DNA of 64,000 nt from a virus. Both the position numbers and the translations under genes were made by a program. Positions 1 through 33,046 of the stretch are shown here, piece by piece. Below the pieces are notes generated by a model. That model did no database searches and was not told where the DNA came from. It saw only the letters and a program-made list of their open reading frames with translations. How positions within the stretch are numbered: position 1 is the first letter of the stretch; the number at the start of each line of letters is the position of its first letter. The stretch lies in the IMG/VR virus record IMGVR_UViG_3300023276_001086, positions 1 through 64,000 of that record; one strand, 5' to 3'.

Positions 1-3000
1 GGGGATATAATCCTCCGTGTCGCCAATCTTCACCCTAAAGCCGCCAGCTGGATCCTTTTTGACACGCTTGATCTTCCCGCTCGAGGTGGCGAGGGTCGCT
101 GATCCCTTGACCTTCTTCTTGAGATAGAGGAGTTCGGTGGCTCGATTGAGACCACCAGATGTCAACGACTTTTCGCCCTTACCCTCATAGACACCGCCAG
201 AGTGGAATGCCTTCATAGCCAACTGAGTGCCGCGTTCTCCCAAGGCCTGAGCCGCCAGAACACCCACATTGGTCCCCTTGTCGGGAAGCTGCCCAGTCTC
301 ATCGAGCCCCATGCACTTCGCGCACACACCCTTCGGGTGACTGCAACGCATCGGGGAGCGGACTACGACCTTGGCCGTCGTCTTACTGTTCTTGATCTTC
401 GTGAGCATGTCGGGGGTCATCATGGTGCCAGAGGGGATCTTCTTCCCACGCCCCAAGTTGACATCAGCTGTCGTAAATCTTCCGACCACGTCTGGCTCGT
501 CCACGGAGAGATTGATACCACGCTCGGTACCGCAATCGTTCCTATCGACCACAGTGTCGATAACGCTGTTGGTCATCATCTTGGTGAGGTAGCCCGGCTC
601 ACTAACCGATTGAACTTTCTGGACAATACCCTTACGGCCGCCGCTGGTGGACGACCAATAACTCGTAGTGTCTAACCCCTCAGAGTAAGACTTACCCACA
701 GGGTTGGGGATGACGTCGCCTTTACCGTCGACGAACAGGACAGGGGCGGCGGTGAGCTGACGATAACCGTTACCCTTGACTCCCGCTGCGACCTGGAGCA
801 CATCCAAATTCGTATTCAGCTTCTTGGCCTTGTTCTTGACGCCTACTTCCATCTTGTCCATAGCGTCGCCATAGACATCCACAATCTTTTGGGCATCGGC
901 CGGCTTGTTAGCATCCAGCTTCGCAACTTTGGACGCAGCCGCCCGTAGAATAGGATCTCGCACATCCTTGTGTGTCTTGAAATCCTCGAGACCGAAGCTG
1001 AAACCCTCAGTAGATGCTGTCTCGTTGCCGAGCTCTTTCATGGCGTTGGCCATGTCGGGGTACGCCTTCGGATCAGCCCTGGCGACCTGTTGGAATAATT
1101 TGCCCTGCTCCTTCTTGGTGAGCTGGAACTTGAGATCCTTCAGGATAGGACCACCCTGCAAAGACTTCGGCAGTGTCTTGTCCACTCGAGCTCGACCGAG
1201 CGTAGTCTTGACACCCCCCACCTTCACGACGTCGGTGAGCTTCACGTCACTGGCATTGAATGCCTTCTCGAGAGCGGCCTGGTCCTTGAAATTCTTGCTC
1301 GTAGCCTTGCCCGTCTGTGCCGCCATGAACAGGCCAACCTGCTGCTCGTGGCTGGGTGTGTACATGACACCGTGGCTAGCCGGACTGAATAGGTTCTTCG
1401 AGGGGTACATCCCCTCGGCCTCCTTGATGGCGTCCTGACTTATTGGAACGAAGGCGCTCATGGTGTCGCCGTCGAAGTCAGCGTTGTACCCAGAACACAC
1501 CAACGGATGGATCTTGATGGCCTTGCCCTCAGTGAGCTTTGGCTTGAAGGCCTGAATGCCATACTTATGCAACACAGGGTCGCGCTTGAGGATGAGCGGA
1601 CGTTCGGCAACCACTCGATCAAGTGCCTTACGCGCCAACGGATCATCCTCCTCAATCATCTGCTTGGCTTGGAGCGGGGTGGCACCCGCAATACCACGAA
1701 GCTCTTTGACGATGAAGGGTTTGTACATTTCTTTGGCGGCCTTGCGCGGGATGGCCGCCTCATCGAGAGACATGCCAGGATCCGGAACGATAGTAGAACG
1801 GGCCGTCATGTCTTGCTTCCGCTTGATCAGTACGCTCTGAGCAAACCCATCCTTCGGTCCGTTCTTACCTGCGATGGTGTCGAGGATACCGGGGTGCTTC
1901 TTGTTCAGCGTTCCGCCAATGCCAGTCAGCGCCTTGAGGTGGTCATAGGTACTGGCGGCGATGGGGGCCTTCATAGAGTCGGGCGTGCCCTTGGGAAACT
2001 CACCCATCTTCTTGTTGACGATCCCGAGTCCCTTGTAGAGCTCGTTGAGGTCATCAGTCTGGAGGGAGCCATCCTCCATCACTGAGATAGGTCTCATCGA
2101 AGGGGGTAGTACGGGCACGTTCTGCGTCATGTACGCGTCACGTGGACTCATCTTGAGCTTCTTCAGGTTTCGGAGATACTTGATCTTCCGACGAGACTCA
2201 CTCTGCGCTTGACCCTTCAGCCCCTTGATTCGCTTCTCCTCCTTTGCCAAATCCTTACCGACGTCAATCTTATCCAGCATCACACCAACGGCCTTCGGAC
2301 CGTAAGTTACTCCCTTGACCCCAGAGCCGGTAACGATCTGACCATCCTTATCAACGCCGTCCTCCCCATCGATCAACCTACCGAACTGAGGCCCGCGAAT
2401 GCCGGACAGATTCATCACAGCCTTCTCAAACAACGGGTTCGGCATAGGCTCACTGAGCTTGATGTGGCTCCACTTCTTGCCATCCATCCCGCCAGTGATC
2501 TTCTCGTCGAACAGGCCGCCCTTCTCCGGCTTGAGCGTCCGCATCTTCAAAATGCGCCCAGCATCCTTGAGCTCACCCTCGCTCATGTCCTTGACCTGAG
2601 AGTCGAGAAGCGGCACCAAATTGAGACTGTTGCCATCCTTCTTCACGTCAACGCCCATGGCGTTGAGGTAACCGTTGAACTTCTGGTAGGCGAAGGTGGT
2701 CTTCGGAGGCGGCAAGACCTCACCGGCCTGGAGAGCCCCCCAAAGCTCATCCTTCTCCCCGCCTTGAGCCTTGTCTGACTTCGTGACCTGCATCTCCCGC
2801 AGGTTCGCCTTCGCACCATGGGCGAGCATGGCATAGACACCGAGAGACCCAAGAGCCTGCGCTCCGTGTTTCCCGCCCCCTCGGGGGACCAGGTTGTGGT
2901 CGTAAGCATCCCGATCTCTGGAGGCCATCTTCTTGCCGACTTGGTGCTCCATCTTGAGGATGTACTGGTGACCCGTCTGAATATTGGGGATGATCTTGCC

Positions 3001-6069: not shown

Positions 6070-7941
6070 TCAGATGAGGGCGGCGTCGCGACGAGGAGGC
6101 TTCTGTTCGGGGAGCGGCTTGCCCGCGGACCCTTGCTGGGCTTGCGGCTGCGGGTTGAGCTGCTGCTGGATCTGCTGTGCAAGCTGGCCATTCTGTGCCG
6201 CGATACGTTGAATCACCTGCTGCTGGGCACCAGGCTCAAGAGCACGAATACGCTGGACCATCTGCTGGAACTGACCGCCCGGTTCCGGGACTGGCCCAGG
6301 AGACACGCCCTGTTCCCCGGCACCCTCACCGGGTTCGCCTGGGGCAGTGCCGTGCTTACCTTGCTGGGCCTGCTGCTGTTCACGAGCCATGACCATCTGC
6401 GCCTTAGCCTGCCACTTCGCTTGCTCGACCTGAGCCTTGCCGCCGATACGGGCCTCGGCCATCTGCTGCTCCTCGACACCCTCGAGACGGCGCTTGACCT
6501 CCTTACGGAGAAGATCATCCTCCTCTTCGGGATTGAAGTCCGAATCCTGGAGCAGCGTGGTGTCGCTGATGAGCTTGGCCTGGTTCATCTGGAACAGGTA
6601 CGCCTTGCGCTGGAGGTCATCTGCCATCTTGAAGGGCTTGAACCTGACATCGATCTCAGGCCAGTCCAAATGAGCTGCCGTGCGCCGAATGATGAAGTAC
6701 CGGATCATCCGCTGCAAACCCGAGACGTAGCGAAGGAAGGTGTTCTCCAGCATCCGAAGGCTGACGTTGGAACCGGACCAGGATAGGCCGCCGAAGATGA
6801 GCTCAGGCGGACAACCCATCCCAGCGATGATGGTATCGGCCACTTGACGCATCTCAGCATTGAGAAGCAGAGCTCGCCCGTCACCACCAATGGTCTGGTG
6901 CTGAACCGGGATGGGCATAACCGGCATGTAGAGCGGGTCTCGCCGCCACTTCATGATCTCGCCCATGGTGTGGTTACGCCAGTCCGCCAGGTTGACGAGC
7001 TCGTAGGGGTTGGCCCCAGGAGCCGACATCCCAGGTGAGAGAATGTTCATCGGGAGCATTCGCTCGAGCAGAACAGCCTCTTGGCTCTTTTTCATGAGCT
7101 GGAGGTAGAAGGTGTCCTTGAGCACCGGCATGATCATTGGAGTGCCCCAGCCGCGGTTCAGTTTCCCCGTAAGGATAGAAGGGCGGCGGAGGTGATAGAC
7201 GTTGTCCGGATCGAGGACCACGGCCTTCTGCTTCTTGACCGCATCGATGAACACCTGCGGAGAACGATCGACGACCTCCCGCTTGCCGACCATGATGGCA
7301 TTCTTGACGTGCCCAGGCAGTGAGTAGAAGTAGGTAGTCTCGGCGGTGAGCTCGTTGTAGCGGATGTCGATGTCCTCTGGGTTCCAGAGAATAAGTCGGG
7401 TGTTGTGCGGGGTCTTGAGGAACTGATCACGGACCTCGGCGTCCCCATCATGACCGCAGTGCGAGCACTTCAGGTAAAACTTGCAGCTCCGGAAGGTGTA
7501 CTTTGCCTTCGTAGCCTGGACCTCACCCTTGCACTTCTCACACTTCAGCCACTTGATGAACGGGTGGGACAACGAAATGATCGCGTTCCCGTAGCACATA
7601 TAGAAGAGCCCAATGTCGACGAGCGCCGAACGAAGATAGAGGTCGCGCTCGAAATAGTTCTCCCACTTACTCTTCAGCCCCGCGCTATCCGTATCGAGCA
7701 CGATGTCGGTGATCGGATACTCGGCCATCTTGTTGACGACCGTCGCGATCAGTGCGTTGGTGAGGTAGTAAAACCTGCACCACTGGAACATCTGCTTGAC
7801 GGTGCCGGGAAGATAGGTATGGGCCAGGTCAAAGAACGGATTGGGGTAGGAAATACCCTCCGCACTAGCTGTCCCGCCAATTCTTCCACGAAGCCTAGAG
7901 CTTCGGACATTGCTTGTTGGGGCTCCGCCATAGTTGAACAT
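6070..7941 (-). CDS. Portal protein with an inserted zinc ribbon
   Basis: 623 aa, the usual size for a large-phage portal. It has the portal-like pattern of an N-terminal wing (NPFFDLAHTYLPGTVKQMF), a central region that speaks of membrane-free dodecameric packing, and a C-terminal Gln/Ala-rich coiled tail ending KPPRRDAALI. Portals form the ring at one capsid vertex through which DNA is packaged and ejected. Residues 134-162 hold CEKC and CSHC pairs (C134, C137, C159, C162), a zinc-ribbon insertion that is not part of the ordinary portal fold. ATG at 7941 directly follows the stop of the upstream gene with GGTGGG as SD. It lies in the head block, upstream of the RNA polymerase. Assignment rests on general pattern, size and context. 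Confidence 0.75.
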   Translation of the reverse strand: MFNYGGAPTSNVRSSRLRGRIGGTASAEGISYPNPFFDLAHTYLPGTVKQMFQWCRFYYLTNALIATVVNKMAEYPITDIVLDTDSAGLKSKWENYFERDLYLRSALVDIGLFYMCYGNAIISLSHPFIKWLKCEKCKGEVQATKAKYTFRSCKFYLKCSHCGHDGDAEVRDQFLKTPHNTRLILWNPEDIDIRYNELTAETTYFYSLPGHVKNAIMVGKREVVDRSPQVFIDAVKKQKAVVLDPDNVYHLRRPSILTGKLNRGWGTPMIMPVLKDTFYLQLMKKSQEAVLLERMLPMNILSPGMSAPGANPYELVNLADWRNHTMGEIMKWRRDPLYMPVMPIPVQHQTIGGDGRALLLNAEMRQVADTIIAGMGCPPELIFGGLSWSGSNVSLRMLENTFLRYVSGLQRMIRYFIIRRTAAHLDWPEIDVRFKPFKMADDLQRKAYLFQMNQAKLISDTTLLQDSDFNPEEEDDLLRKEVKRRLEGVEEQQMAEARIGGKAQVEQAKWQAKAQMVMAREQQQAQQGKHGTAPGEPGEGAGEQGVSPGPVPEPGGQFQQMVQRIRALEPGAQQQVIQRIAAQNGQLAQQIQQQLNPQPQAQQGSAGKPLPEQKPPRRDAALI

Positions 7942-9027
7942 TTAGCCCACCACCTGCCCAACTTGCCCAGCCTGTTGAGTCGCCTGCCTAGCTAGCACAC
8001 CAACTGGCTGACCGTACTGTTGGGTCACCTGCCGGTACCTTGAAGCGGTAGACGGGGGCTGCTGAGGTTGCTGGGGCTGCTGCCCAGAACCGCCGCCAAT
8101 TACCTTGCCAGCCAAAGCCGAAATTCCAGTTCCAACGCCCATGGCCGCCGCTATGGGAAGACCACCAGCAAGTGAGTACCCAGCCGAGTCAACAACACCC
8201 CGAACCGCAGGTCGCCAATCCTTTTGCTGAACACCCTCTACCACACCGGGCGCAGCAAATGCCAACGGCAAACCCACACCCATCGCCAACCCGGGAGCAG
8301 TCAAGTTTGTCTTGGCGATATTGACTCGACCAAGCTGCTTCCCCGACGCACCTCGCCCAGTGGCGTAACCCTTGGCCACACCAGGGACCGAGGTCATGCC
8401 TTCTTCAGCAAGTAGTCTCTGTGAACGCTGGGCGGCAATTCGCCTGTTGAGCAGGGCACCGCGTAGATCAGACCTCTCCCACTTCTTACCGACACCTGTC
8501 TCAGAAAATCGCTGCGAAAGGCTGTCTCCCCCAAAGAACCCCTCTTCACCCTTCCGCTTCTTAGCGATAGTGTCCCTGATATTATCTAGCGCCTTCTTTT
8601 TGTCGGTAACGTGTGCGTCTGGAATTTTCCAACCAATTCCCTTGAGCGCCTTGACTCGCGCTTCTTGGCTAGTGCCCCCGGGAGCGGCCTTGAGATTCTG
8701 CCCGCGCCACCCCTGTCCCGGTAGGTAACCAGTAGCTCCGTGCAGCTGCCGCTGACCGAACTGCTTGATCTGGATACGGCCGGCCTTAGTCGCAGCCTGC
8801 CCACCGGCAAGACCAGCAAGACCGCCAACAATGCCACCTTTTACGGCGCCCTCAAATTTTTTATCTGGTGCTGCTCGAGAGTACCCAGTAGCCCCGCCGA
8901 CAGCGGTACCAAGACCGGCGCCGACCCATCGACCCATACTGGCCGATACAGGTGCAATAGCTATCTTTTCCATCTCGTCGAGTTGAGCGTCGATAAATGC
9001 GAGATCAGCGCTGTAGTTTCCTGCCAT
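7942..9027 (-). CDS. Glycine-zipper structural protein with a C-shifted DExxKIA tag
   Basis: 361 aa. The N-terminus ends FIDAQLDEMEKIAIAP, which matches the DExxKIA end of the tag found on six small proteins near 30-32.6 kb. Next comes a glycine-zipper region (GAGLGTAVGGATGY, then GGIVGGLAGLAGG, residues about 36-80) able to insert in or pack against membranes. A basic middle follows, then a second Gly/Ala-rich segment and a Gln/Pro-rich tail. It overlaps the preceding gene by 23 bases and abuts the portal. Its place in the head block suggests a virion component. Internal head or ejection protein is an inference; no family is recognised. Confidence 0.7.
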   Translation of the reverse strand: MAGNYSADLAFIDAQLDEMEKIAIAPVSASMGRWVGAGLGTAVGGATGYSRAAPDKKFEGAVKGGIVGGLAGLAGGQAATKAGRIQIKQFGQRQLHGATGYLPGQGWRGQNLKAAPGGTSQEARVKALKGIGWKIPDAHVTDKKKALDNIRDTIAKKRKGEEGFFGGDSLSQRFSETGVGKKWERSDLRGALLNRRIAAQRSQRLLAEEGMTSVPGVAKGYATGRGASGKQLGRVNIAKTNLTAPGLAMGVGLPLAFAAPGVVEGVQQKDWRPAVRGVVDSAGYSLAGGLPIAAAMGVGTGISALAGKVIGGGSGQQPQQPQQPPSTASRYRQVTQQYGQPVGVLARQATQQAGQVGQVVG

Positions 9028-11274: not shown

Positions 11275-12474
11275 CTACTGGGCCATGCTGGCGATGATAC
11301 GTTGTGTATCCATTGGAAGGGAATCGAAGATCACGACAGGGTTGTCCGCCAACCCACTCGCCATGTCCGCCCCAAACTTCTCTTTCAAAAGATCCTGCTT
11401 GTCGGTGGCCAGCTTCTTCAGCTGACCTTCGGTGAGGCTCTCATCGCCCTTCGCCCAAGACCACTCGGCAGACGCACGCTTCTCACCGAACGTCGTAAGC
11501 CAGGGGTCACAAACGCCCTGGTCCCAGCGATGATCGATCTGAGTAGCCGCGTCAATCTCCGCCAATGCTTCAGCGAAACGCTCCGGATGGAGGCTGGCCC
11601 TCTTCTCCATGAGAAGGTCGAGCAGCCCTGGACCTTCTTCGTTGTTCGTCTCGGCCCACACCTGGCGCCGGGTGGAGAGGGTGGCCTGCATCTCACCGGG
11701 GTTGGCGTACTCAGTCGAACCGTACTTTCGGATGACGGAGGAGACCGGAACACCTAGAGTGTCCGCGCGACTCGCTAACTTGGTACACATCTCGTGACGA
11801 ACACGGGGGTGCATCTCGCCGACCGTCTCTTGGAAGAAGGTGACTGCGTCCCCCACCTCGTCGTAGGTGTTGAGCGGGAACCGCCCATCGCCGAACGCTG
11901 CTGTCTTCGTCATGCCCCCAGAACTCTCCGGTACCCACTCGTCTACCAGGCGGACGTAGGGACTGTCCATCACAGCAGCCGACTTCTTCATGCTGCCCTG
12001 TCCGGGGCGTGCGGATCTCGGCATGATACCCGTACCAGATAGATCCGACTCTTTCTCCAGACGACCCACCGGTACGGTGATGTCGGCGCCGTCAGTCTTG
12101 ATCAACCTTTTTCGATTGGCAGCGGTCTTCACAAGCGCCAACGGGGGTTGGACGCTGAAGTGCTGGCACATCTTGGAAAGGTTGGACGCAATCTTGACCC
12201 GAGCAGTGGGCGGAATCTCGTCTTGGTGCTCAAGGAAGTAGAGCACGTTCACCGCAGTGTGCGCCTTATCCGTACAGGCGTACTTCCGCATCTGCTCATG
12301 CTCGCCCACAAAAACAACAGCAAAAGCGTGGTCTGGGAGTGCGTCGCGCTGCTCCACGTCCATGATCGCTGCCGTCTTGATGAAGTCTGGTACGGCACGT
12401 TTTCGGAAGAAGGTCCCGAGAGACGCAAAGCCATCGTCATAAGGATCGAGCACTGCGCCCGCCGAAATTTTCAT
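11275..12474 (-). CDS. Head-block protein with repeated K-T/S-A-A sites
   Basis: 399 aa when started at ATG 12474, which has GAGGA six bases upstream and a promoter 26 bases further. A longer frame exists upstream but lacks an SD and would overlap the promoter. The protein is mostly helical and charged, with no recognised family. FIKTAA (about residue 31), LVKTAA (114), MKKSAA (162) and MTKTAA (188) recur. VKIA (93) and two EKRAS sites occur as well, resembling the KIA that ends the N-terminal tags elsewhere. This could reflect processing sites for a prohead protease or a repeated helix cap. First gene of the leftward head operon; scaffold or internal head protein is possible. Confidence 0.7.
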   Translation of the reverse strand: MKISAGAVLDPYDDGFASLGTFFRKRAVPDFIKTAAIMDVEQRDALPDHAFAVVFVGEHEQMRKYACTDKAHTAVNVLYFLEHQDEIPPTARVKIASNLSKMCQHFSVQPPLALVKTAANRKRLIKTDGADITVPVGRLEKESDLSGTGIMPRSARPGQGSMKKSAAVMDSPYVRLVDEWVPESSGGMTKTAAFGDGRFPLNTYDEVGDAVTFFQETVGEMHPRVRHEMCTKLASRADTLGVPVSSVIRKYGSTEYANPGEMQATLSTRRQVWAETNNEEGPGLLDLLMEKRASLHPERFAEALAEIDAATQIDHRWDQGVCDPWLTTFGEKRASAEWSWAKGDESLTEGQLKKLATDKQDLLKEKFGADMASGLADNPVVIFDSLPMDTQRIIASMAQ

Positions 12475-29405: not shown

Positions 29406-29660
29406 ATGGGGTGGGAATGGCGTCCCGGGAGCCGTAAACAGAAAACGCTAGTCTGCCGAACGTGCAACCAATGTAAGGACCCGAACTACCAAGGCTGCGG
29501 GACGTGCAACTACCACAGTGCAACATATGACTGCTGCCATTCTCGTGTCGAAGACAAAGACGGCTCGCGCATCAGGCTTCACTGCAAATTCTGGGTACTA
29601 GATGGCGGTGACGACGTAGGCAGCGAGGGCGACGAGAGCGGCGGCGACCAAAGTTCCTGA
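29406..29660 (+). CDS. Cysteine-rich small protein, possibly leaderless
   Basis: 84 aa. Eight Cys lie in CRTCNQC, CGTC, CC and a later HC, spread over residues 17-60, suggesting one or two zinc sites. The C-terminus is Gly/Asp/Ser-rich and acidic. No SD but a -10-like TACACT immediately upstream. It runs opposite to the lysis-type genes, and its last 63 bases overlap the 3' end of the minus-strand gene 29598-30125. A similar arrangement is seen for the gene at 45203. Regulatory zinc protein is a guess. Confidence 0.6.
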   Translation: MGWEWRPGSRKQKTLVCRTCNQCKDPNYQGCGTCNYHSATYDCCHSRVEDKDGSRIRLHCKFWVLDGGDDVGSEGDESGGDQSS

Positions 29661-30125
29661 GAGGAACCCGAACCACCACGACCTGTACCACGCTCCAGCA
29701 CGCCTGACGGCCCTCTCAGCAGCCGTAGCGCGTTCTTGGTGGTACTCGGCCTGCTCCTCGAGCAGCGTCTCTCTGATGGTGGCTGTCTCCCGCGCGTGCG
29801 CCACCTCGATACGGAACCTCTCAGCGATGTACAGACGGTCGGCCCACCGGAGTCTGCGGAGAGCTTTCAGCTTCAGCCCGTACTCCACGAGCCGGTCCCG
29901 ATGTACCAGAGCGCCGTCCCACTGGGCCTCGGCGATGTCTCCCTGCTTCATGGGGACGGATCGCGGTGGATTGAGACGCGGGATAAGCGCCCCCTCCTCG
30001 GGCCCGGGACAATCGAAGTTGGGTGCCTGCTTGGAGTCGTAGTTCTGGGGACCGCACACCGTCTGCGTCAACCCCGACGACGGATAAAGGACAATCAGCA
30101 GAACAACCGTTGCCGGCCACCTCAT
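29598..30125 (-). CDS. Secreted/anchored protein with signal peptide and C-terminal membrane segment
   Basis: 175 aa. The signal peptide MRWPATVVLLIVLYPSSG is followed by Cys-containing TVCGPQNYD. Residues 60-140 form a long charged helix (RIEVAHARETATIRETLLEE). The C-terminus WWFGFLSGTLVAAALVALAA is a membrane span. Such topology, with a periplasmic coiled coil tied to membrane, suits a spanin-like lysis protein, but no lipobox is obvious. ATG overlaps the stop of the upstream tagged gene. Last gene of the long leftward block. Confidence 0.7.
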   Translation of the reverse strand: MRWPATVVLLIVLYPSSGLTQTVCGPQNYDSKQAPNFDCPGPEEGALIPRLNPPRSVPMKQGDIAEAQWDGALVHRDRLVEYGLKLKALRRLRWADRLYIAERFRIEVAHARETATIRETLLEEQAEYHQERATAAERAVRRAGAWYRSWWFGFLSGTLVAAALVALAAYVVTAI

Positions 30126-30301
30126 CCGAACACGGCTCTCGGCCCCTGGCCGGGCTTCAGCGTGGGGCGATGCTCCTTCTTGAGAAGAATGAACCCCTCC
30201 TTGCGGCCGCGCTTCCAGAACTCTTTGGCCTTTGTAACCAAGCCCGGTTTGACGGCTGAAATCTTCTGCATCTCGTCTGAGAATGCACTGAAGTTGATCA
30301 T
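30122..30301 (-). CDS. Small tagged protein 1 (59 aa)
   Basis: Starts MINFSAFSDEMQKIS, the shared N-terminal tag, followed by a basic helical body (KAKEFWKRGRKEGFILLKKE) and PGQGPRAVFG. Stop and start overlap both neighbours by three to four bases, so translation is coupled. The tag DNA is nearly identical to that of the next gene upstream (30661-30705). No function recognised. Confidence 0.75.
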   Translation of the reverse strand: MINFSAFSDEMQKISAVKPGLVTKAKEFWKRGRKEGFILLKKEHRPTLKPGQGPRAVFG

Positions 30302-30705
30302 CGAGAGCCCCCTTGTGAAGGACGAACTAGAGAACCGCCAACGCCCCCCGCAACACCAGCACCGGCTGTGGCCAAGGCAGCGCCGCCCAAAACCCGCTTG
30401 GACAGGTCGCCCCTCGCAGCCTCAGGAAGAGCGTCCATGGCCTTGTTCAGTGGTAGCGAATTCCCGGTCCGCGCAGTGACCGCATAGGCCGAGCCGAGTC
30501 CATGCTTCTTGACGGCCCCGCGAAAAAGACGTGACCCACCTACACCAGCACCAGCGCCCAGAGCCCCACCGACCAAAGCACCACTCAGACGGTTACCCTC
30601 TCCCGCTGTCGCTGCTCCGCCAACCGCGCCAAGGCCGGCACCTACCGCAGCACCCAGACCTGCAATCTTCTGCATCTCGTCTGAGAATGCACTGAAGTCG
30701 ATCAT
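30298..30705 (-). CDS. Tagged glycine-zipper protein 2 (135 aa)
   Basis: Starts MIDFSAFSDEMQKIA. ATG 30705 is supported by ATGA overlap with the upstream gene; a further-upstream start would lengthen the overlap and bury the tag. Residues 16-65 are a glycine zipper (GLGAAVGAGLGAVGG, then GALVGGALGAGAGVGG), and a second Gly/Ala stretch (GGAALATAGAGVAGGVGG) lies near the end. Such repeats insert in membranes or form helical oligomers. Inferred: virion-internal or membrane-active protein delivered by the tag. Confidence 0.75.
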   Translation of the reverse strand: MIDFSAFSDEMQKIAGLGAAVGAGLGAVGGAATAGEGNRLSGALVGGALGAGAGVGGSRLFRGAVKKHGLGSAYAVTARTGNSLPLNKAMDALPEAARGDLSKRVLGGAALATAGAGVAGGVGGSLVRPSQGGSR

Positions 30706-31025
30706 AGATTGTCGAACCACGTCACCACCTCTTCGAGCGGCTTGTCCTGAAGCTCATCGAGCTCGGTCTGCTGCTCGTCAGACATTTCCTTGAGACGCTC
30801 GTGGTTGCGTACCTCGAGCTCAGCAATCTTCTGGTCACGGACGAGCTCGGAGTTGCGCAACTTCTTCAGCGCCTCACGGGTCTTCTCGTCAAGATCCCTT
30901 GGGGGTTCGGCGTACTGACTGACCAGGGCTACTGTCGTAGTAGCCGTGGCGATAGCGAGCAGAATACCCACCGGGAAGATGATCCACTTCCAGTACTTCT
31001 TGAACCAGGTCCAGGCCTTGAGCAT
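30702..31025 (-). CDS. Membrane-anchored coiled-coil protein, spanin-like
   Basis: 107 aa from ATG 31025. One membrane segment IIFPVGILLAIATATTTVAL near the N-terminus is preceded by aromatic/Lys residues (WTWFKKYWKW), then a charged coiled coil to the end (REALKKLRNSELVRDQKIAE). This is the topology of Rz-type inner-membrane spanins, which link inner and outer membrane during lysis. No sequence family can be confirmed. It is the only untagged gene within the tagged cluster. Confidence 0.65.
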   Translation of the reverse strand: MLKAWTWFKKYWKWIIFPVGILLAIATATTTVALVSQYAEPPRDLDEKTREALKKLRNSELVRDQKIAELEVRNHERLKEMSDEQQTELDELQDKPLEEVVTWFDNL

Positions 31026-31061
31026 CACAGTCCTCAGTTGAAGTGGAGCACGCAAAACACG

Positions 31062-31082
31062 AGCTGGTCAACGCCACCAGCT
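31062..31082 (-). terminator. Weak hairpin with short T-run in a 117-base gap
   Basis: AGCTGGT, seven-base loop, ACCAGCT. On the minus strand it is followed by CGTGTTTTG. The gap 31026-31142 otherwise contains nothing recognisable. Possible attenuator between the upstream tagged genes and the spanin-like gene. Confidence 0.3.
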
Positions 31083-31142
31083 GGCTTCACCAGATGGGAT
31101 TTACGGGGTCTCTCCCCACCAAAAAGGACACTCATGACTCAC

Positions 31143-31433
31143 CTACCGCAAAGCGTGCCTGGTGTGCGCTGCGGTCATGCGAAGGCCTCTGCCGGCCGTG
31201 GCAGCACCCTCCCCGACTTCGCGCCCACCAAGACCACCGACAACGGCACCGCCCGCAAGAGCCGCCAGCCGAGCCTTCCCCGTCAACTTCGGGGCCAATT
31301 TGGACGCACCGGCCGCACCCAACCCGGCCCCGGCGATACCACCGACCATCTTGGCCTTACGGTTAGGATCGGGGTACCCGGCGTACTGGGCAATTTTTTG
31401 GAACTCGTCGCCAAATGCTGTGAAGTCGATCAT
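31143..31433 (-). CDS. Tagged glycine-zipper protein 3 (96 aa)
   Basis: Starts MIDFTAFGDEFQKIA, then QYAGYPDPNRKAKM and a glycine zipper (GGIAGAGLGAAGASK, then AALAGGAVVGGLGG), ending basic (MTAAHTRHALR). Overlaps the upstream gene by four bases. Same architecture as the 30298-30705 protein but diverged. Tag plus glycine zipper suggests a membrane-active internal virion protein; no family known. Confidence 0.75.
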   Translation of the reverse strand: MIDFTAFGDEFQKIAQYAGYPDPNRKAKMVGGIAGAGLGAAGASKLAPKLTGKARLAALAGGAVVGGLGGREVGEGAATAGRGLRMTAAHTRHALR

Positions 31434-31933
31434 CTCGTTACTCCTGTCACAAGCGCACCGCGCTCCTTGACTCTCTTGATAATAGACGGAACGCCCTCGT
31501 AAAGACCATGCTTCACAGCCTTCGTACTAAGATAGCCCCTACCCTTACTCATCGGGGCCCTCTTGTCCTGGTGGACGAGGTATGCGGGGCCGAGCTTGTG
31601 CGCGTGCAGTCTCCCCGCCCTATAGGATGTTGTAAGAGGCCGCTCTCCGGGCAACGGAGTGGCCAGCCTAGTCGGCTCAAAGCCCATGGCCTTCATGTCC
31701 GGCATCGTGCTCTCGGGTACGACCACGTTCCGATAACCGAGGACCGTGGGCACGTCCTTGTTGTTCAACGCACTGATGAGCTGCCTCTTGGCCTTCCCAG
31801 GAGTCTTCGACAGCTCGTTGACGATGGGGAGCTGCGCCTTGATCTGCACCCCGACGTGGCCCGCGCCCAGGGGCTTGAACCCCACGGTAGCGATCTTGAC
31901 GAGCTCATCGGTGAATGCAGAAAAGTCGATCAT
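31430..31933 (-). CDS. Tagged protein 4 (167 aa)
   Basis: Starts MIDFSAFTDELVKIA at ATG 31933, which shares one base with the upstream TGA. The body contains GHVGVQIKAQLPIVNELSK and a C-terminal part KRAPMSKGRGYLSTKAVKHG. No recognised fold. Basic overall, so a nucleic-acid-associated virion protein is possible. Confidence 0.75.
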   Translation of the reverse strand: MIDFSAFTDELVKIATVGFKPLGAGHVGVQIKAQLPIVNELSKTPGKAKRQLISALNNKDVPTVLGYRNVVVPESTMPDMKAMGFEPTRLATPLPGERPLTTSYRAGRLHAHKLGPAYLVHQDKRAPMSKGRGYLSTKAVKHGLYEGVPSIIKRVKERGALVTGVTR

Positions 31934-32127
31934 CAAAATCCCGTACTCCCACGGCCAACGAGTCCCAAAATCCCACTACCTGGGTTGAGTGGGTTGGCCC
32001 CACCGGGCAACGTCCCGACTGTCCTCTTCGCCTTCCGCTTCAGCGTATCGAGTAGAAGGCGCACCTTCTTCGGGTTCTTTGTGGCAATCTTCTCGAACTC
32101 ATCGGCGAATGCAGAGAAGTCGATCAT
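31933..32127 (-). CDS. Small tagged protein 5 (64 aa)
   Basis: Starts MIDFSAFADEFEKIA, followed by a strongly basic segment (TKNPKKVRLLLDTLKRKAKR) and a Gly/Pro-rich tail. The start overlaps the upstream stop (TAATG). Basic peptide with a targeting tag: it could condense DNA like the small basic internal proteins of T4 heads. Inference only. Confidence 0.75.
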   Translation of the reverse strand: MIDFSAFADEFEKIATKNPKKVRLLLDTLKRKAKRTVGTLPGGANPLNPGSGILGLVGRGSTGF

Positions 32128-32648
32128 TAGGCTACTCGGCCCAAACGACTTTCGCCCTCTCGAGCAACACGACGCATCATGTCCCCCTGGTGCTCGCCGC
32201 TGAATGCCCCTTCCGCAACCCGCGGCTTCTGCCGCTTGATGCTCTCAGTCGGGAAGTCCTTCGCCTGCTGACGGATCTTCTTGACCTCTGCGCGATGCCC
32301 CTTCAATGCCGCCCGACGCTTGAGAGGGTGCCACTTTGAGATACCCTCGACGGCCTTCCTCTTCTCCCCCTGCATCTCAGCAATACGGCCGGGCTTCCGT
32401 GTCGCAGTGCCGCCGGGCTTCATCGCCGTGGCAACATCCTTTGAGATGTCCTTCGCCCCCGCCCTGACATCGCCCACTGTGAGACTCGCGCCCCCGGGCT
32501 TCCGAGCTCGCTCGAGCTCCTTCAGACCGGCCTGGAACTTCCGACCCTCGGGTGTAAGGCGTTTCCCCACTAGAGACTGTATAATTTTGGTCTGCCGGCG
32601 CAGGGCAATCTTCACGAGCTCATCGGAGAACGCAGCGTAGTCAATCAC
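32127..32648 (-). CDS. Tagged protein 6, basic (173 aa)
   Basis: Starts at GTG 32648 with (M)IDYAAFSDELVKIA. A longer frame reaching 32729 is rejected because the GTG overlaps the upstream TGA (GTGA) and begins exactly at the tag. The body is very rich in Lys/Arg (KKIRQQAKDFPTESIKRQK) and helical. No recognised family. Confidence 0.75.
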   Translation of the reverse strand: MIDYAAFSDELVKIALRRQTKIIQSLVGKRLTPEGRKFQAGLKELERARKPGGASLTVGDVRAGAKDISKDVATAMKPGGTATRKPGRIAEMQGEKRKAVEGISKWHPLKRRAALKGHRAEVKKIRQQAKDFPTESIKRQKPRVAEGAFSGEHQGDMMRRVAREGESRLGRVA

Positions 32649-33046
32649 GACTTCAACCTCTTCTGCTCCTTCGGGTCGAGGTCGAGCTCGATGTCGATGC
32701 CCCGAGCTTCGGCCATCTTCTTCACCCACTTGACCATGACCATGGAGAGCAGACCAGCGATGCCGTAGACCAGAGCCAGCGTGAGCGAGCTCGACTCAAC
32801 AAGCTGCGGAGGCCTGGGCACACCGGGGATCCATCCGAGTCCGAAGCCGATGAGGAACATGCTGGGGACCTTCACGGCCTCCATGAACTTGAGGAACTTG
32901 CGGACGGGCTTGTTCTTGGTGTCCCAGAGGTATGGCCCAATGCCCCGCCACTTCCCGAGCCCGTTGAAGAAGGCCACGATAATGAAGACCACGCAGCTCA
33001 TCACGATGAACTGCCAACTCGATACGATCCCCCAGAGGTCGTCCAT
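32645..33046 (-). CDS. Holin-like membrane protein
   Basis: 133 aa with three hydrophobic segments: WQFIVMSCVVFIIVAFFNGL (residues 11-30), PSMFLIGFGLGWIPG (about 62-76) and LTLALVYGIAGLLSMVMV (about 88-105). A charged C-terminal tail ends DPKEQKRLKS. Size and topology match holins, and it lies next to spanin-like genes, but no endolysin is evident in the window. Could instead be another small membrane protein. Confidence 0.6.
   Translation of the reverse strand: MDDLWGIVSSWQFIVMSCVVFIIVAFFNGLGKWRGIGPYLWDTKNKPVRKFLKFMEAVKVPSMFLIGFGLGWIPGVPRPPQLVESSSLTLALVYGIAGLLSMVMVKWVKKMAEARGIDIELDLDPKEQKRLKS

Follow-up and report, generated by a model that had tools for sequence, protein, structure and literature searches.

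A shared N-terminal tag on unrelated basic proteins of a large uncultivated phage, a probable head-targeting propeptide

The stretch of DNA analysed here (the window, 64,000 nucleotides) belongs to an IMG/VR virus record of 167,832 bp, IMGVR_UViG_3300023276_001086, and contains a cluster of small genes whose products begin with variants of one peptide, MIDFSAFxDExxKIA (the tag), and then diverge. The question raised by this locus is why otherwise unrelated proteins should share their first 15 residues. A preliminary description of this DNA had placed six such genes in 30122-32648 and proposed that the tag delivers diverse cargo into the phage head. Our analysis indicates that the tag is probably a head-targeting propeptide ending in a site for the prohead protease of the phage, while packaging, core binding, cleavage and ejection of the tagged proteins are steps that we infer. 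All six open reading frames (ORFs) are found in that region, with the ends of several of them overlapping:

30122..30301, minus strand: tagged gene, 59 residues, basic body; tag MINFSAFSDEMQKIS at 30257-30301; tagged homologue in L141
30298..30705, minus strand: tagged gene, 135 residues, glycine-zipper body; tag MIDFSAFSDEMQKIA at 30661-30705
31143..31433, minus strand: tagged gene, 96 residues, glycine-rich basic body; tag MIDFTAFGDEFQKIA at 31389-31433; tagged homologue in L018/L142
31430..31933, minus strand: tagged gene, 167 residues, basic body; tag MIDFSAFTDELVKIA at 31889-31933; tagged homologue in L140
31933..32127, minus strand: tagged gene, 64 residues, basic body; tag MIDFSAFADEFEKIA at 32083-32127
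32127..32648, minus strand: tagged gene, 173 residues, GTG start, basic body; tag VIDYAAFSDELVKIA at 32604-32648

The tag in this genome and in its relatives

A DNA pattern for F-x-[DE]-E-x-x-K-[IV]-[AS] matched exactly the six tag sites within the window, and no match was obtained in 100 dinucleotide-preserving shuffles of it. Extension of the search to the rest of the genome, as the preliminary description had proposed, raised the total to nine matches in the whole record, all N-terminal and all on one strand, the structural one, with no internal match and none on the opposite strand. Three tagged genes were thereby added, with starts at 135744 (LIDLAAFSDELQKIA), 140686 and 141255; of these, the second and third are located ~5 kb downstream of the capsid gene and in the same direction. 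BLAST among the bodies behind the tags detected no mutual similarity, as had been claimed for them. Differences between tag copies amount to 204 at third, 137 at first and 58 at second codon positions; since they fall mostly at third positions, the tag is conserved as protein and not as DNA.

Tagged bodies are strongly basic. Isoelectric points (pI) of the nine bodies range from 10.2 to 12.0, those of their tags from 4.1 to 4.4, and the genome median is 5.6; when the relatives described below are included, 68 of 71 tagged bodies lie above pI 9. Among small genes of the virion module, all tagged ones encode basic proteins (8/8) versus 16/46 of the others (p 7e-4), and several tagged bodies are glycine zippers. 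This cargo profile fits DNA-associated and membrane-active internal proteins, the internal proteins of phage T4 also being described as basic (PMC9026906).

When one entire tagged protein was used to query IMG/VR, no relatives were retrieved, because the bodies are too divergent, and the capsid protein, helicase and sigma factor of this virus were consequently used as queries. IMG/VR contains 226 relatives of the capsid protein, and 80 of these loci were read. Strict tags in these relatives amount to 42 distinct ones, 41 of them at most 12 residues from the start codon, one at 13-25 and none internal, and in 19 large records the tag pattern produced 44 matches, distributed over 12 records, versus none for the backward control. 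The 71 tagged proteins fall into 37 body clusters without mutual similarity behind the tag (the largest with 11, 10, 6, 5 and 4 members), and four of the 71 are SNF2 helicases, most of the other body families being orphans. Scanning all IMG/VR with a relaxed, ATG-anchored tag pattern returned 26 stretches, and a very strict pattern two matches; since most of the 26 stretches hold homologues of genes of this virus, the tag is close to clade-specific. One of them, a transketolase-like gene (L132), looks like a chance match. Two tagged proteins (L108:7847 and L020:20590) show a weak match to the neutral zinc metallopeptidase family (Pfam PF04298, E about 0.004). Capsid relatives in three contigs of metagenome-assembled genomes were not accepted as host evidence. 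No paper on a capsid-targeting tag from metagenomes was found in the literature.

K-x-A motifs in head genes

Reading of 186 predicted genes revealed that the last residues of the tag recur well beyond the tagged proteins. The motif phi-x-K-x-A, usually followed by A or S, is found near the N-terminus of the capsid protein, the protease and several scaffold-like proteins, the latter carrying up to nine copies of phi-x-K-x-A-[AS]. Genes relevant here are:

146488-147606 of the record: major capsid protein, phrog_2522
150985-153162 of the record: putative prohead protease, PHROG head maturation protease, E 0.0018
148488-149594, 149946-150911 and 154182-155090 of the record: further scaffold-like proteins
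11275..12474, minus strand: scaffold-like protein with internal phi-x-K-x-A-[AS] repeats, 6 versus 0.29 expected
7942..9027, minus strand: 361-residue basic protein adjoining the portal gene, with the looser N-terminal motif LDEMEKIA
6070..7941, minus strand: portal protein candidate, phrog_16240, E 4.5e-5

The DEMEKIA noted earlier in the 361-residue protein is located at its residues 17-23. In counts by module, phi-x-K-x-A-[ASGE] and its reversed control occurred 32 versus 3 times in head and tagged genes, 4 versus 1 in tail genes and 5 versus 6 in replication genes. As the list of head genes behind these module counts was chosen partly by the motif, the fair test is the count over the virion region, which was not motif-selected: K-[ILVMTSEQ]-A-[ASG] was found there 47 times versus 10 for the reversed motif, and 9 versus 11 times outside. 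Within-protein shuffles predict 0.17 to 0.61 motif copies where 5 or 6 are observed. In the capsid protein, the N-terminal sequence LF-x-QKL-x-S-x-EGKEKIA is kept with few exceptions across the 80 relatives; its AlphaFold model, with a predicted local distance difference test score (pLDDT) of 43, was not used.

The putative protease itself carries such sites. Its homologues show a K-x-A site directly before the protease domain, and their alignment indicates that E309, K310 and A312, after the domain, are invariant, as are H124/H125 and S181. The AlphaFold model displays pLDDT values mostly of 80-95 over about residues 81-260, while the stretches holding motif sites 32, 272 and 310 are of low confidence. 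Its best fold match in the PDB is T4 gp21, a weak one (E 0.67, probability 0.54), and a BFVD match to gp19 of phage G (E 1.4e-7) is firmer. Herpesvirus maturation proteases, distant relatives of the prohead proteases, cut between Ala and Ser.

Sigma factors, helicases and the Arash virion

Larger proteins carry related N-termini. The sigma factor of this virus (Pfam Sigma70_r3, 5e-8) has a looser tag, NPVEEFLGSEDALEKEA, and so do those of relatives, for example DPVLDFLEFATELDKEA. Most helicase relatives present a variable N-terminal piece with K-x-A at or near its end, directly ahead of the helicase domain, as in TAFEDELEKEADVITPLKAHQQ and LFKAFCDEFTKIADVATSLKPHQQ; the matching stretch of the helicase of this virus is DEFKKEGAELKSTLLPHQQ. 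In the record, a sigma-70-family factor (66384-67151) adjoins an SNF2 helicase (67151-68728) in the tail module, both with N-terminal K-x-A-type extensions. Two relatives encode SNF2 helicase fusions of 1560 residues (L101:4905-9584, IMGVR_UViG_3300009037_000005) and 1461 residues (L100:4995-9377). In the longer one, SNF2 helicase and NUDIX domains score above the Pfam cut-offs and a LigD_N match stays sub-threshold; its K-x-A motifs are placed at 353, directly before the helicase (Pfam matches from 365), and, between NUDIX and the LigD_N-like region, at 987/1007. In L108, K-x-A at 259 likewise directly precedes the helicase. The L101 and L100 proteins, both with K-x-A sites beside their domains, are candidates for polyvalent-like virion proteins. 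Polyvalent proteins, in which an SNF2 helicase is fused to other enzymes, have been predicted to be packaged in the virion and injected (PMC5512222). The two fusions resemble them, with several disparate enzyme domains in one polypeptide (L101), but K-x-A recurring beside domains and a short tag on small single proteins set the present system apart.

Salmonella phage Arash is a distant cultured relative (its capsid protein is 28% identical) for which virion proteomics have been published (PMC10585845). Since the "coverage" figures of that dataset look too high for its peptide counts, unique-peptide counts were used, the shortest annotated genes being left out. Five or more unique peptides are recorded for 8 of the 9 Arash proteins that carry an N-terminal motif, versus 61 of 185 others (p 0.0012), and the motif-rich proteins gp220-gp226 and gp242 are all in the reported virion proteome. 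The helicase gp217 and the sigma factor gp10 are also listed among the virion proteins, the virions being reported to contain sigma and helicase homologues plus a multisubunit RNA polymerase (PMC10585845). The first residues of both gp10 and gp217 coincide with the end of their homologues' tag. The dataset includes probable background, for instance a DNA ligase with two unique peptides, and single Arash entries thus weigh little. K-x-A-S also occurs at the extreme N-terminus of Arash gp100 (L121:46396-47172, MEKQAS) and gp206 (record 130093-134670, MPKSAS), and Vibrio phage D69 encodes a protein starting MPKKAS (L098:6289-10872).

Proposed mechanism, alternatives and known systems

The tag has two components, an aromatic-xx-Phe stretch whose spacing matches that of the capsid-targeting sequence (CTS) of T4, and the terminal K-x-A. 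During prohead assembly, an internal core would bind the amphipathic aromatic-xx-Phe-x-[DE]-E stretch, and otherwise unrelated basic proteins would thereby be brought into the head, namely small ones of DNA-binding-like or glycine-zipper type, SNF2 helicases in relatives and, if its looser tag is counted, the sigma factor. The prohead protease encoded by the phage would recognise K-x-A in the tag, and at phi-x-K-x-A-[AS] it would also process the scaffold, its own propeptides and, probably, the capsid protein. The tag would then be clipped off, the cargo would stay with the DNA and ejection into the host would occur at infection. A broader proposal, for which we see about equal grounds for belief and doubt, is that this constitutes a two-part loading code, with aromatic-xx-Phe-x-[DE]-E as address and K-x-A as cut site for a prohead protease accepting alanine at P1, which would be conserved in a large uncultivated phage clade and used on single proteins as well as virion polyproteins.

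The head-delivery idea of the preliminary description is thus reinforced by the N-terminal restriction of the tag, its reuse on unrelated bodies, the tagged helicases, the sigma factor with a looser tag, the basic cargo, the concentration of K-x-A in head genes and the Arash proteomics, but packaging and cleavage after KIA are only what we infer from these. Several observations weigh against it: (i) most large relatives have only 1-6 strict tags and several have none, so that the address part varies; (ii) KIA is followed in the tags by a variable residue, A or S in just 23/71, a weaker match to phi-x-K-x-A-[AS] as seen at scaffold sites; (iii) in gp100 and gp206 the motif is so close to the N-terminus that cleavage would remove almost nothing, which is hard to explain by cleavage alone and fits a docking motif too; (iv) the sigma factor and helicase of Arash are tagless, yet they are in the reported virions, so that either the tag is not the sole route or the dataset has non-virion background; and (v) the proteomic support comes from distant Arash only, and not from this virus or its tagged close relatives. 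Because of the variable residue after KIA and the motif placement in gp100 and gp206, cleavage of the tag, given targeting, is considered fairly probable rather than assured.

These same two features are what would be expected if the tag loaded cargo but stayed uncut, phi-x-K-x-A being a docking motif for the core or the protease that is multivalent in scaffold proteins, with the motif of gp100 and gp206 at residues 1-6. We regard this as an unlikely alternative, though one that deserves consideration, as the sites adjoin folded domains in the protease and the fusion proteins, A or S is favoured after K-x-A at scaffold sites just as at protease sites, and the Arash sigma factor and helicase start where their homologues' tag ends. 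That the tag directs proteins to the tail lumen, the baseplate, an assembly site or the membrane seems improbable: K-x-A clusters in the genes for the capsid, the protease and the scaffold-like proteins and seldom occurs in tail genes, two tagged genes lie downstream of the capsid gene, and helicase-size cargo and uniformly basic bodies better suit a DNA-filled head, even though tail-fibre-like genes and possible lysis genes neighbour the window cluster, and the tail module includes the sigma factor and helicase. Ordinary paralogues with fast-diverged bodies, or a nucleotide-level element for expression or recombination, might be suggested by the tandem arrangement of the genes and their common 45-base start. 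Both were rejected on the unrelated bodies and the mainly synonymous differences between copies; because SNF2 helicases also bear the tag, as do dozens of unrelated bodies, and because in the relatives it is always in frame at protein N-termini, we give them hardly any weight.

A head-targeting propeptide invites comparison with T4, whose CTS spans 10-19 residues and depends mainly on residues 4 and 7 for targeting and on residues 8 and 10 for processing (PMC9026906). T4 IPII and IPIII start MKTYQEFIAEA and IPI starts MKTFKEFTSTT, with an aromatic residue at 4 and Phe at 7; in this genome the tags similarly have F or Y at 4 in 8/9 and F at 7 in 9/9, while the register varies in relatives, where F, Y, L, M or I stands three residues before the Phe in 48/53. 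Both the tag and the T4 CTS (of IPI, IPII, IPIII and Alt) are short N-terminal peptides common to unrelated small basic proteins, and, as for T4 internal proteins, the tagged cargo genes differ between relatives. Beyond the two aromatic positions, however, the sequence is another one, the tag is also carried by SNF2 helicases, and it ends in K-I-A with a predicted K-x-A cut, the T4 gp21 signal [LI]-x-E being absent. A tblastn search with the capsid protein matched Arash, Vibrio D69-like phages, three mycobacteriophage records and phage G, and did not find T4. The likeness to T4 claimed earlier thus extends to the design and the aromatic-4/Phe-7 spacing, which may be coincidence or convergence, and not to membership in the T4 system, given the absence of [LI]-x-E and of recognisable relationship to T4. 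The best reading of this comparison is that the tag would act as the T4 system does while standing outside it.

Other phages offer partial parallels. An N-terminal signal of at most 30 residues from P1 DarB suffices to bring a reporter protein into the head (PMC9024508); this signal is reported for DarB, and the P1 capsid protein is cut E|S, unlike the K-x-A predicted here. SPN3US has many head proteins, some with N-terminal propeptides of 20-24 residues, a self-cutting protease and head-packed ejection proteins (PMC10052503), but the cleavage motif of SPN3US and phiKZ-type phages is A-X-E, and no description of one address peptide common to many cargoes was found in that account.

If the proposal is correct, a 15-residue label would flag injected proteins of a large uncultivated phage group without culture or proteomics, and with the two-part code the proteins that such viruses inject could be catalogued from their genomes. 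Orphan gene families by the dozen would become testable as effectors of early infection, parts of a membrane conduit or DNA-binding proteins. The T4 targeting design would gain a further case, with another sequence and the same aromatic spacing, and the prohead protease would have a specificity, K-x-A, that departs from the motifs with glutamate at P1 described for T4, SPN3US and P1. Such a minimal tag could be used as a handle to load cargo for delivery.

Amid and flanking the tagged cluster of the window, three untagged proteins with signal-like or hydrophobic segments (29598-30125, 30702-31025 and 32645-33046) are possibly the products of holin or spanin genes. Finally, the ends of the record repeat over 180 bases with two mismatches (window 1-180 versus record 167653-167832), so that the 167,832-bp genome is probably complete.

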